A stretch of 64,000 bases of DNA from NCBI GenBank assembly GCA_913030805.1, contig CAJWDL010000002.1, positions 62,001-126,000 of the forward strand. Direction: 5' to 3'. Shown in pieces: positions 37,805 through 44,343 of the stretch. The notes beneath the pieces are model-generated. The model was not told the DNA's origin and ran no database searches. It saw only the letters and a program-made list of their open reading frames with translations. Each line of letters opens with the position of its first letter. Positions within the stretch are counted from its first letter, which is position 1. This DNA comes from an uncultured Candidatus Pelagibacter sp. (lineage in GTDB: Bacteria > Pseudomonadota > Alphaproteobacteria > Pelagibacterales > Pelagibacteraceae). Both the position numbers and the translations under genes were made by a program.

Positions 37805-38839
37805 TTGAAAACATTAATAATAAGAACTGATAAAGTAGGTGATATATATTTTACCCTGCCATATATAAATTCTATAAGAAAAGCTTATGGCAAAGAGAAC
37901 CTGGACTTATTAATTGCTGAAAATATTTATGATCATTTTGCTGAAAAGAACTACCTATATAATAACATTTATGCTTTTCCAAAAAAAGGAATAATAAAAA
38001 AAATTCTTTTAATTATCAAATTAAGATCAAATAATTACAAGCATATTTTGGTCTTTGATGGTAAGGATAGGTCGTTAATTTTTTCATATTTGTTAAAAGC
38101 CTCAAAGAAAATCTTTTTTTATAATAAAAAAAAAATTAATTCACTTTTAAAAATATTTTTTTTAAATAAAAAGAAACATATATTTGTAGAAGATAATAAA
38201 AAAGAAACATTGAACGATCTCTTTGCTAAAATGTTAAGCCATTTGAAATTTAACAATAAAACTATAGATTTTAAATTTATTAACTTTTGCAATTTATCAA
38301 GTATAAATTTTCCAGATATTTTACGTGAAAGATTTAAAAAATATACCTTATTTCATTTGGATGAAAGGTGGTTTTCAAAATATTATATTAAAAAATTTTA
38401 TGATATAAACTTAACAACAAATGATTTTATAGCTTTTATAAACACCTTTTTTAAAATCCATAAACATAACCTTATAATTACAACAGGTTTTATTAAATTA
38501 CCTTTTATAAATTTGCTTAAAGATAAAATATTCACATATATCCAATCTAATTTTTATGAATATAACTATAATAATTGTAAAGCAATTCTCGTTGAAAATA
38601 GCACATTAAACGAACTAGAAATCATAATAATGAATTCAAAAAATATGATTACCTGTCATACTGGTTTGTCACTGTTGGCAGGAGGATTTAATGTTAACTT
38701 AATTGATATAATAGACAAAGAAAACGACAATGAATTTAATTATCAAAGATTAACTTCTCACATAAAAAGATACAGCAAAATATATAGAAAAGAATTTAAT
38801 GAATTGTATAAAGATATATTATTAAAAATTGATCAATGA
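37805..38839 (+). CDS. Glycosyltransferase family 9 (heptosyltransferase-like)
   Basis: 344 aa; LIIRTDKVGDIYFTLPYINSIRKAYG; TCHTGLSLLAGGFN near C-terminus. TTG start. Confidence 0.75.
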   Translation: MKTLIIRTDKVGDIYFTLPYINSIRKAYGKENLDLLIAENIYDHFAEKNYLYNNIYAFPKKGIIKKILLIIKLRSNNYKHILVFDGKDRSLIFSYLLKASKKIFFYNKKKINSLLKIFFLNKKKHIFVEDNKKETLNDLFAKMLSHLKFNNKTIDFKFINFCNLSSINFPDILRERFKKYTLFHLDERWFSKYYIKKFYDINLTTNDFIAFINTFFKIHKHNLIITTGFIKLPFINLLKDKIFTYIQSNFYEYNYNNCKAILVENSTLNELEIIIMNSKNMITCHTGLSLLAGGFNVNLIDIIDKENDNEFNYQRLTSHIKRYSKIYRKEFNELYKDILLKIDQ

Positions 38840-39111
38840 AATATTATGTATATATGCTGGTAAACAAAAATAAAAATAAATTATTTTCGTATGTAGGTTA
38901 TACAAATAATATTGAAAAACGCATTATGCTTCACAATAATTCTAATGGAGCAAAATTCACCATGGGAAGGAAATGGATACTGTGTTACAAAGAAACTTAT
39001 TTAAGTAAATCAAAAGCAATGTCTAGAGAATATGAATTAAAAAAAGATAGAAAATTTAGAAATTTTCTAAAAGAAAAATTCATGAAGAAGAATAACAATC
39101 TACTATACTAA
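38836..39111 (+). CDS. GIY-YIG nuclease superfamily protein (UPF0213-like)
   Basis: 91 aa; YYVYMLVNKNKNKLFSYVGYTNNIEKRIMLHN...AKFTMGRKWILCYKETY. Confidence 0.9.
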   Translation: MKYYVYMLVNKNKNKLFSYVGYTNNIEKRIMLHNNSNGAKFTMGRKWILCYKETYLSKSKAMSREYELKKDRKFRNFLKEKFMKKNNNLLY

Positions 39112-39124
39112 AAAAAATTACACT

Positions 39125-41275
39125 ATGAAAATTTCTATCCTATTACCTTACAAAGAAAATTTTTCACCCACTTACGCTGGTGCTGTATCTTTATTTGTAA
39201 AAGATACTGTCAAATTAAGTGAATATAAAAAGAACATTACTGTTTATGGAAATACAAATTTAAAAAATATATTTAAACTTACCTATAAAAATATAGATTT
39301 AAAAAAAAATTTAATTCAAAGTGGCAGCAAACTTTATGTAAATGAATTTTTAAATTACGAAAATGAATCACCCTCTGATTTAATAGAGATTCATAATCGA
39401 CCCAATTATTTTCATTTAATACATAAAAAAATTATTAATCAAAAAATAGTTTTATATTTTCATAACGATCCTCTTACTATGACTGGATCAAAATCTTTAA
39501 CTGATAGAAAAAAATTATTAAATCATGCGTCAAAAATTATTTTTAATAGCCATTGGTCAAGAAAAAGATTTTTGCAAGGTATTGAAGGAATCCATTTAAA
39601 TTCGGAAAAAATTTCCGTAATTTGTCAGTCAATTGGTCCAACAAAAGTAAATTTAAATAAGAAAAAAAAATGGATTACTTTTGTTGGTAAATTAAACCGG
39701 GCAAAAGGTTATGATTTATTTGGAAATGCTATTTTGAAAATCCTAAAAAAATATAAACAATGGAAAGGAATGGTTATTGGAGATGAGCCCCGAGCAACTC
39801 TTATTTTTAAACACAAAAGACTTAATGTAATGGGTTTTACAAATCATAATAGGGTATTAGAAATTTTTAAGAGAACAAGTATTGCAGTAGTTTGTTCAAG
39901 ATGGAATGAACCATTAGGCAGATCAAGCCTTGAGGCTTCTAGTCGTGGATGCGCAACCATTATTAGCAATAAAGGAGGTCTGCCAGAAACTATTACCCAC
40001 GGAATCATTTTAAAAAAATTAAGTATTTCCTCTGTTTACAATGCAATTAAAGATTTAATTGAAAATGAAAATAAAAGAAAACTGCTGCAAGATTTATCTA
40101 TAAAAAATTTTTTTCATACAAATAAATTAAGTTCGAAAAAAATGGACCAATATAGAAGAAATATTTTAAAAACAAGTCCATTAAAAAGAAACTTAACTAA
40201 TCATATTCCAAAAAGTTTACGTATTTTGCATGTTACTAATTTTAACGAACGTCATGATGGTAGACTTTTTTTTAATACTGGCAGAAGAATTAATAACGGA
40301 TTCATTAGACTTGGTCATAGCGTTTTAGAATTTAGCGATAGAGATATAGTTAAACACTACAAGAGTTTTAAAGACCACACTGGTTCGAAAGCTTTAAATC
40401 GTAAATTGATCAATACCGTTTATAATTACAAACCAGATTTATTGATTTTCGGACATGCTGATCTCGTAAAACCAGAAACTATAGCCTACCTAAAAGAAAA
40501 TTATAAAGATTTAAAGGTTGCCCAATGGTTTTTAGATCCGCTTATTAAAAACGGACCAGATTATGAAAAGAATAAATCGAGAATTTTAAACAAAATTAAA
40601 TTTACTGATACAAATTTTTTAACTACTTCACCTGATGTTATAGATTTTTTACCCAAAAACAAATCATGTTTCTTTATACCTAATCCATCAGATCCATCTT
40701 TTGAAGTTTTGAATAATTACAAAAATAATCAGTGTTCTATGGACGTTTTTTTTGCTCTAAGTCATGGTGTACATAGGGGTATTTTAAAGAGGGGTAAGCA
40801 CGATGAACGTGCCGATTTTGTGAATAAACTAATGGAGAAAACACCAAACGTTAAATTTGACTTGTATGGAATAAATAACATCCAACCCATTTGGGCTGAT
40901 TCATATTTTAAATCAATAGCTAATGCAAAAATGGGAATTAATTTAAGCAGGGGTAATCCAATCAAATATTACAGCAGCGATAGAATTACTCAATTCGTAG
41001 GTAATGGTCTTCTTACATTTATTCACGACAAAACTCATTACAATAATTTCTTTTCAGAAGATGAAATTGTATTTTATAATAATGTTTCTAATCTTTCTGA
41101 AAAAATCCAAAAATTTGCAAAAGATGATTATTTAAGAAAAAAGATTGCCAAAAAAGGAAAAGCAAAATATATGAAATTTTTTAATTCTACAATAGTGGCC
41201 GATTATATAATTAAGAATACTTTTGGTCATAGTTATAAAAAAAACACTTATTTGTGGGAAGATAATAAAAATTAA
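39125..41275 (+). CDS. Two-domain glycosyltransferase: N-terminal GT4, C-terminal CgeB-like
   Basis: 716 aa; GT4 part VGKLNRAKGYDLF...SRWNEPLGRSSLEASSRGCATIISNKGGLPE; second domain LRILHVTNFNERHDGRLFF...GINLSRGNPIKYYSSDRITQFVGNG. Confidence 0.82.
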   Translation: MKISILLPYKENFSPTYAGAVSLFVKDTVKLSEYKKNITVYGNTNLKNIFKLTYKNIDLKKNLIQSGSKLYVNEFLNYENESPSDLIEIHNRPNYFHLIHKKIINQKIVLYFHNDPLTMTGSKSLTDRKKLLNHASKIIFNSHWSRKRFLQGIEGIHLNSEKISVICQSIGPTKVNLNKKKKWITFVGKLNRAKGYDLFGNAILKILKKYKQWKGMVIGDEPRATLIFKHKRLNVMGFTNHNRVLEIFKRTSIAVVCSRWNEPLGRSSLEASSRGCATIISNKGGLPETITHGIILKKLSISSVYNAIKDLIENENKRKLLQDLSIKNFFHTNKLSSKKMDQYRRNILKTSPLKRNLTNHIPKSLRILHVTNFNERHDGRLFFNTGRRINNGFIRLGHSVLEFSDRDIVKHYKSFKDHTGSKALNRKLINTVYNYKPDLLIFGHADLVKPETIAYLKENYKDLKVAQWFLDPLIKNGPDYEKNKSRILNKIKFTDTNFLTTSPDVIDFLPKNKSCFFIPNPSDPSFEVLNNYKNNQCSMDVFFALSHGVHRGILKRGKHDERADFVNKLMEKTPNVKFDLYGINNIQPIWADSYFKSIANAKMGINLSRGNPIKYYSSDRITQFVGNGLLTFIHDKTHYNNFFSEDEIVFYNNVSNLSEKIQKFAKDDYLRKKIAKKGKAKYMKFFNSTIVADYIIKNTFGHSYKKNTYLWEDNKN

Positions 41276-41283
41276 ATCTTTAA

Positions 41284-42240
41284 TTATATTTTAATTTTAT
41301 TTAGTGCATTATTTTTAAATAAATTTGCTTCTTTAATGTAACGTCTAACCATTTGAGTAGTTTTATGACCTGTCATGGCCATAATACTTCTTTCGTCTGC
41401 GCCAGATTCAGCAGTGACTGTTGCAAAACCTGATCTTAAACTATGACCTGAATAATTTTTGTTTTCTATGCCAGCAATATCTAGATAATATTTTATCAAT
41501 AATGCAACTGATTGATCTGTTAAGCGATTTTCGCTCAGTTTAAAACTTTTGGAAAAACGTCTAAATATTGGACCAGTTTTAATATTTGATAACTCAAGCC
41601 ATTTTTTTAAATGCAAAACGGGACAGTAGTTTTGATTGGAAAAGTAGGGGAGGCCTTTTACCATTCCTTCACCAAATTGGTCTGTTTTTGACCTTCTAAT
41701 GACGATTTTGACCCCTTCTTGTACTATTTCTATATCATTATAATTAATTGACACCAGTTCAGTTCTTCTAAAGCCACCTCCAAATCCAATAAGAATTAAG
41801 GTTTTATCTCTAATTTTTTTGATTTCTTTAGTCTTTTCATTATCTATTACATTAATAATTGTTTTTAACTCATTGATTAATATTGGTTTTTTACCTTGCT
41901 GAAAACTTCCCATTTTACGCTTAATACCCATTAAATTTTCAATAATTATAGGGTGTTTAGCATCAAGATAGTGGCCTTTGAGTTTATGAATAACGCCTAT
42001 TGATACCAATCTTCGTCTTAAAGTGCTAATTTTAGTACCCTTTGAAGATAGGAAAGTTAAATATAAAGCAACTATTTTTGATTCAGTGGGAAGAGGTTTA
42101 AGGCTATTTTTCGCACAAAAAGCTGAAAAATCATTAAAATCAGATCTATATGCACGAATAGTATTACTTGCCTTAGAACTTTTAAGATTGTTTAAAGTTT
42201 GGTTCTGCAAAGCTTTAATATCAGTTATAAGTTCATTCAT
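41284..42240 (-). CDS. Tyrosine recombinase / phage-type integrase
   Basis: 318 aa; N-terminal SAM-like core-binding region; catalytic residues intact: GFGGGFRRTEL (Arg), HSLRSGFAT (HxxR), TGHKT (His), RRYIKE (Tyr). Confidence 0.93.
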   Translation of the reverse strand: MNELITDIKALQNQTLNNLKSSKASNTIRAYRSDFNDFSAFCAKNSLKPLPTESKIVALYLTFLSSKGTKISTLRRRLVSIGVIHKLKGHYLDAKHPIIIENLMGIKRKMGSFQQGKKPILINELKTIINVIDNEKTKEIKKIRDKTLILIGFGGGFRRTELVSINYNDIEIVQEGVKIVIRRSKTDQFGEGMVKGLPYFSNQNYCPVLHLKKWLELSNIKTGPIFRRFSKSFKLSENRLTDQSVALLIKYYLDIAGIENKNYSGHSLRSGFATVTAESGADERSIMAMTGHKTTQMVRRYIKEANLFKNNALNKIKI

Positions 42241-42247
42241 GTTTTTT

Positions 42248-42282
42248 ATTACTATTGATAACCTTTAATTATCGTTAGTAAT
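42248..42282. repeat. Imperfect inverted repeat, candidate recombinase target or operator
   Basis: ATTACTATTGATAA-CCTTTAA-TTATCGTTAGTAAT: 14-bp arms, 12/14 complementary, 7-bp spacer, beginning 8 bp upstream of the recombinase start codon. Confidence 0.6.
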
Positions 42283-42324
42283 ATATTAAGTGATTTTAGA
42301 AGTCAATAACTATAATTTAAAAAC

Positions 42325-43537: not shown

Positions 43538-44343
43538 CTAACTAGATATAAACCTCTCCCTAAATGAAATATAGACACCAGATAATACAATAATAGCTAA
43601 ACCTATCCACGTCCAAAAGTCTGGAAAATCAGAAAAGAAATAATAACCAATTGAAACGTTTGTAATAATTTCAAAGTAACTAAATGGGGCTAATTTTGAT
43701 GCATCAGCGTATTTTAAAGATGCACATAAACCTATGAAGAACATTAATATCCATTGACCAGAAGTAGGTACTACCCAAGTAAAAGGCATGTACAAAGTTA
43801 AGATAAAGGCTCCTACTACACCGGTAATCAGTAATGTTAATAAAGGAGTATCTACTGTGTGAAGTTTTCTCGTAACAATAATATATGTTCCATAAAAAAA
43901 ACCTGTTCCCAAAGCTGTTAAAGTAGCAATATTAAAATCCAACAAACCTGGGCGAATAACAATTAAACTACCCAGAAAACCCACAATCACTGCAGACCAC
44001 CTTCTATAACCAACTCTTTCACCCAAAAAAAATGGCGATAATGCAGTTACAATTAATGGTGCAACAAATGCCAAGGTAAAGATATTATTGAAATTGAATA
44101 AAAAAATAAAATGTTTGCAAAAAGCAAGATTAGACCTCGAGTAAACTGTAATTTAGGTTTGGAGGTCCATACTAATTGTTTCCTAAAAAAGAAAAACATA
44201 AAAAATAAGACAATTAGCATCGTAAAAAAATATCTTGCCCACACTATTTGCAAAACGGGTAAATCAGAACTAAGATGTTTTGCCATTCCATCCATAACAG
44301 GCAAAATAGCCCAAGCTAATAGATTATAAAAAATCGCTTTCAC
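43538..44343 (-). pseudogene. EamA/DMT-family transporter, frameshifted
   Basis: Two overlapping ORFs (44053..44343 N-terminal half; 43538..44074 C-terminal half). N-half ends ...FFYSISIISLPWHLLHH*; other frame resumes LAFVAPLIVTALSPFFLGERVG. Confidence 0.85.

Follow-up and report, generated by a model that had tools for sequence, protein, structure and literature searches.

A conserved inverted repeat beside the single Xer-like recombinase of Pelagibacteraceae is a probable dif equivalent with copies in pelagiphages

A 35-bp inverted repeat lies directly before a tyrosine recombinase gene in the window (the whole 64,000-nucleotide stretch of an uncultured Candidatus Pelagibacter sp. analysed here), raising the question of what it does in a member of SAR11, the bacteria that outnumber all others in the sea. 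The initial annotation took it for a self-encoded recombination site or an autoregulatory operator, forming with the gene a small mobile or invertible module. A 2009 survey reported Pelagibacter ubique to be without a dif/Xer system and read this absence as an indication that streamlined genomes do without one (PMC2731167). Our data speak against that survey, in that SAR11 appears to have replaced XerCD with a one-protein system. Judged from sequence, the repeat is probably the dif equivalent of Pelagibacteraceae, serving chromosome-dimer resolution and acted on by the adjacent single Xer-like recombinase (probability about 85%). No description of the SAR11 system was found in the open literature, to which the search was confined. 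The site and gene comprise the following features:

42248..42282, no strand assigned: proposed SAR11 dif, type A, a 35-bp inverted-repeat recombination site (repeat search, conservation, copy count)
42248..42261, no strand assigned: gene-proximal recombinase half-site, ATTACTATTGATAA (sequence and alignment)
42262..42268, no strand assigned: 7-bp centre, the putative crossover region (alignment of orthologues)
42269..42282, no strand assigned: gene-distal recombinase half-site, TTATCGTTAGTAAT (sequence and alignment)
41284..42240, minus strand: tyrosine recombinase, type A with FRRFSK...RLTDQ loop, 318 aa (Pfam Phage_integrase, 1.4e-18)

The layout of the repeat is as first annotated, with 14-bp arms complementary at 12/14 positions around a 7-bp centre (ATTACTATTGATAA-CCTTTAA-TTATCGTTAGTAAT), and a gap of 7 bases separates it from the recombinase ATG. 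By itself this shape is only mildly unusual and is weak evidence: 12/14 repeats with 6-8 bp centres occur at about 0.09 per kb in the window, whose GC content is 28%, and chance alone places a 12/14 repeat in 0.6% of random 84-nt sequences of matching composition. The repeat exceeds chance because it is conserved across orthologous loci. The loci nearest to the window belong to Pelagibacteraceae (SAR11) single cells and metagenome-assembled genomes, and conservation upstream of orthologous recombinases, set beforehand as a condition for the claim, was found in 80/80 of the nearest loci, with the repeat in the same place directly before the ATG. Across orthologues the type A consensus reads ATTACTAATGATAA-TTAATTG-TTATCAATAGTAAT. 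In an alignment of 88 type A loci, 32 of the 35 site columns are at least 93% conserved (the other three 0.91, 0.80 and 0.76) and most lie at 0.97-1.00; columns in the 100 bases upstream are mostly 0.35-0.70 conserved outside the promoter. The centre reads TTAAAGG on the minus strand in the window, the SAR11 consensus being TTAATTG or TTAATGG.

The adjacent gene had been called an intact tyrosine recombinase, and the Pfam match and the intact catalytic R-K-H-R-H-Y residues bear this out; R158, K185, H266, R269, H292 and Y301 are invariant among 29 orthologues, and the C-terminal part is in register with XerD. The protein scores 81 bits with the XerD model (cut-off 329.6), 61.9 with the XerC model (cut-off 335) and 44.4 with the NCBIfam XerS model (cut-off 267), and by these cut-offs it is outside all three. 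An AlphaFold2 model built with 29 close orthologues was poor (pLDDT 45) and was set aside.

The distribution of such recombinases was surveyed through PF00589 matches in 148 Pelagibacterales genomes that are at least about 80% complete, covering Pelagibacteraceae (f1) and a sister family (f2). In the genome of the window (80% complete) the recombinase is the sole match. Most Pelagibacteraceae genomes likewise have exactly one, with extra phage-type integrases in a minority; nearly all sister-family genomes have two strong matches, as expected of XerC plus XerD. Nine Pelagibacteraceae drafts at least 90% complete gave no PF00589 match (G036, which is 99% complete, G055, G080, G096, G109, G128, G130, G144 and G149), reflecting assembly gaps or real losses. 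The sites follow the same division. A classical dif, for example CGTATAA-TATATA-TTATGTAAAAT, is present in most sister-family genomes searched, and a search of Pelagibacteraceae returned nothing above chance level. Near-identical versions and variants of this dif occur in the sister-family genomes G006, G016, G023, G025, G027, G022, G014, G012 and G010. Most Pelagibacteraceae have a single type A site, next to the recombinase, and none of the sister-family genomes scanned has one; the genome scan gave a few additional chance matches with 1-2 mismatches, and a reversed-pattern control almost none. The window and its own genome hold one copy, and the second copy that had been looked for was found in neither. 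One copy per genome is compatible with a dif function, since the two sites that dif recombination joins are those of a chromosome dimer.

The position of the site on the chromosome is also that of a dif. In 11/11 single-contig genomes the site lies at 0.418-0.487 of the chromosome from dnaA, nearly opposite it, although this agreement partly reflects common ancestry and does not represent 11 independent events. GC skew, which is weak in SAR11, was examined in five genomes (20 sampled windows each, about 30% of each chromosome); mean skew was positive on the arm running from dnaA to the site and negative on the opposite arm (window-shuffle p 0.0001-0.01). In 4/5 genomes the best-fit terminus falls within 25 kb of the site. 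In the fifth (G015) the skew changes sign between 985 and 1050 kb, with the site at 999 kb and one contrary window at 1245 kb. Furthermore, an FtsK gamma domain is encoded in 15/15 genomes tested; a search for KOPS-like polar 7-mers gave a weak purine-rich bias and no clear motif. Hence the features of a single-recombinase dif/Xer system are present together: one Xer-type tyrosine recombinase, with a gene-linked, palindromic, non-coding site (10-14 bp arms, 6-11 bp centre) occurring once per genome at the replication terminus. By this proposal, each arm of a site would be bound by one recombinase monomer and two such sites would synapse; strand exchange within the 7-bp centre would then resolve dimeric chromosomes to monomers at the terminus, FtsK probably bringing the sites together at the septum.

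Among Pelagibacteraceae genomes without the type A site, many encode a shorter recombinase, usually of 301-308 aa, that has no FRRFSK...RLTDQ loop (about 14 residues), and in the same place before the gene stands a second repeat, type B (TTTCCGATAA-TTAATGG-TTATCGGAAA), again once per genome. The inner GATAA-N7-TTATC core is common to both types and the outer arms differ. Across 105 loci, 87 A sites accompany a recombinase with the loop and 16 B sites one that has no loop; the two leftover rows, one pattern miss and one start-codon misassignment, are both type A, so that within these sequences site type and protein type match without exception. Protein phylogeny places the B proteins in a single group (SH-aLRT 85) and the A proteins in a second one, bar one long-branch row. 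Three genera (g2, g3 and g6) each contain both types, and the neighbours of the two are the same, with methylguanine-DNA methyltransferase and EamA and AEC transporters on one side and glycosyltransferases on the other; the complete g2 genomes G011 (A) and G005 (B) have nearly the whole context in common. Types that occupy the same slot, in the same genera and among the same neighbours, point to exchange of gene and site together in place, and A and B would then be alternative recombinase-site specificities swapped as cassettes. Matched inheritance of this kind is expected even without direct recognition, because gene and site are physically linked. Recognition is instead argued from the conservation of the site while its flanks drift, and the constancy of the repeat across the orthologous loci thereby supports the original suggestion of a self-encoded dif-like site recognised by the adjacent recombinase. 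The natural A/B switching offers a ready-made set for studying specificity change in tyrosine recombinases.

Copies of both sites were found in phages. Scanning IMG/VR, exact type A sites with a 7-bp centre were present in 26 contigs and exact type B sites with a 7-bp centre in 19; type A arms with a 6-bp centre or an 8-bp centre occurred in 11 contigs each, and the reversed-pattern control matched 0 contigs. The possibility, raised by GC content, that these contigs were elements from outside SAR11 was ruled out by terminase comparison: the terminases are close to those of HTVC010P-type (62%) and HTVC027P-type (72%) pelagiphages, two lineages. Where terL was found the site lies about 190-620 bp upstream of it (35/38 contigs), and several contigs carry A and B sites side by side. 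Of the isolates, Greip EXVC021P carries a type A site whose centre is 6 bp, HTVC100P combines a B half-site with a type A site, HTVC106P has a one-mismatch type B site and HTVC010P shows only degenerate half-sites. Separately, one contig of GC 0.50 (3300021254_003625), unrelated to the pelagiphage contigs, has an exact type B site at the end of its 42 kb. A protein search of the viral contigs for a phage-borne recombinase gave none, bar one weak 41-residue match. The phages thus carry a mimic of the host site, as integrative elements exploiting Xer (IMEX) do, and these copies would let the host enzyme act on phage DNA, for integration or for resolution and circularisation.

The phage copies might serve genome circularisation or multimer resolution, the use that phage P1 makes of loxP/Cre, and not integration at the host site, and we regard this as somewhat short of an even chance. 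Phage centres differ from one another in sequence and range from 6 to 8 bp, against host centres nearly fixed at 7 bp, a variability that fits resolution or circularisation as well as integration. Moreover, no prophage of the HTVC010P type was seen at the host site; HTVC010P-type terL occurs in 8/396 host genomes, in none of them with a site nearby. Against this, type B phage centres such as TTAATCG and TTAATTG are close to the TTAATGG and TTAATTG of the host, which makes exchange of sites between phage and host conceivable. Either use by the phage is compatible with a dif function of the host site. Greip and HTVC010P were described without lysogeny genes, and the infection curves of Greip depart from plain lysis (PMC8163748); the site provides a directly testable handle on why phages of this sort show dynamics resembling lysogeny or chronic infection. 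In its fullest form the proposal is that SAR11 has a single-recombinase dif/Xer system not recognised before, that its two specificities are exchangeable, and that abundant pelagiphages, classed as strictly lytic and devoid of lysogeny genes, might hijack it through their dif copies (often one of each type), integrating or resolving their genomes, under a pressure that might drive cassette switching in place. We advance this whole only tentatively, as something we would not yet expect to hold in every part.

The upstream sequence bears on the alternative that the repeat is an operator. Two promoter elements were assigned:

42301..42306, minus strand: putative -35 box, TTGACT (TTGACA/T conserved in orthologues)
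42278..42283, minus strand: probable -10 box, TATTAC (17 bp from the -35 box, overlapping the site by 5 bp)

In orthologues also, the predicted -10 box reaches into the outer end of the site, making autoregulation probable: bound recombinase would likely limit its own transcription. The operator role initially suggested is hence probably retained alongside recombination, and is disfavoured as the sole role. That the recombinase or another repressor binds the repeat with no recombination taking place there would account for the conserved -35 box and the overlap. It is nevertheless unlikely, since it does not explain why phages without a recombinase gene carry the site before terL, often as both types side by side, nor why the site lies at the terminus, and it would leave the sole Xer-like enzyme without a dif in genomes lacking XerC, XerD and dif.

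The remaining suggestion, that gene and repeat form a small mobile or invertible module, was not supported. If the recombinase belonged to a mobile or invertible element acquired recently, with the repeat as its attachment site, the sporadic occurrence of distant relatives would be as for mobile integrases: outside Pelagibacteraceae these show 28-42% identity and are scattered in Alphaproteobacteria (39/388 genomes matched, SAR11 included), some of them having similar GATAA/TTATC repeats upstream. The gene also adjoins a variable glycosyltransferase cluster. The recombinase is, however, a core gene occupying one syntenic slot across several genera, with one site per genome and no flanking direct copies, by which the module is largely refuted and recent acquisition becomes very improbable. 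The variable glycosyltransferase set, at 37805-41275 in the window and on the downstream sides of loci L086-L105, lies immediately beside the recombinase, so that a hypervariable surface-sugar region borders the terminus site. At 43538-44343 an EamA-type transporter that is one 280-aa frame in relatives is split into frames of 96 and 178 aa, either by a frameshift or by an assembly error.

An older mobile origin is suggested by certain of these relatives. In f123, a small-genome alphaproteobacterial family, two genomes have repeats of the TACGATAA or TTACGATAA type with 6-bp centres right before a related gene (loci L282 in G765 and L283 in G555; CGATAA-N6-TTATCG), and in G765 this relative is the sole PF00589 match; XerCD may have been replaced independently in this family. 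Such linked repeats suggest that a mobile integrase with its own site was recruited to take the place of Xer, perhaps on more than one occasion. A further repeat, AACTTCCGATAA-CGGTCA-TTCTCGGAAGTT, occurs in a genome of 65% GC (G656, locus L277), about 350 bp upstream of a gene distantly related to the recombinase, and its TTCCGATAA arm may reflect an old preference of this recombinase group.

Compared with known systems, the proposed SAR11 dif resembles XerCD/dif of the E. coli type in its proposed function, terminus position and the FtsK gamma domain in the genome, but XerCD/dif works with two recombinases on a 28-bp site whose centre is 6 bp, and is found in the sister family and absent from Pelagibacteraceae. 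XerS/difSL of streptococci and lactococci (PMC5357621) is likewise a single tyrosine recombinase with its site immediately adjacent to the gene and near the terminus; difSL, however, is 31 bp with an 11-bp centre, XerS has 356 aa, and the SAR11 protein falls below the XerS cut-off. XerH/difH of epsilon-proteobacteria (PMC2731167, PMC5357621), compared here by description, also pairs a single recombinase with an AT-rich palindromic site that is gene-linked in many species, but XerH has 354-362 aa and the site sequence is another. IMEX phages such as CTX-phi, which use host Xer (PMC5357621), resemble the pelagiphages in having a copy of the host site and, as far as found, no such recombinase of their own; here, in contrast, the phages are tailed, the site is just upstream of terL, sometimes as two types in tandem, and integration was not observed in the 396 host genomes searched. 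Finally, XerL/dif of Legionellales (PMC9765430) was demonstrated by experiment, whereas the SAR11 system is proposed from sequence, and the abstract of that work describes no site-type switching. The likeness is nonetheless twofold, in that a lineage thought to be without dif/Xer has a single-recombinase system, and in that the site is mimicked on a mobile element, through which the Legionellales system was revealed.
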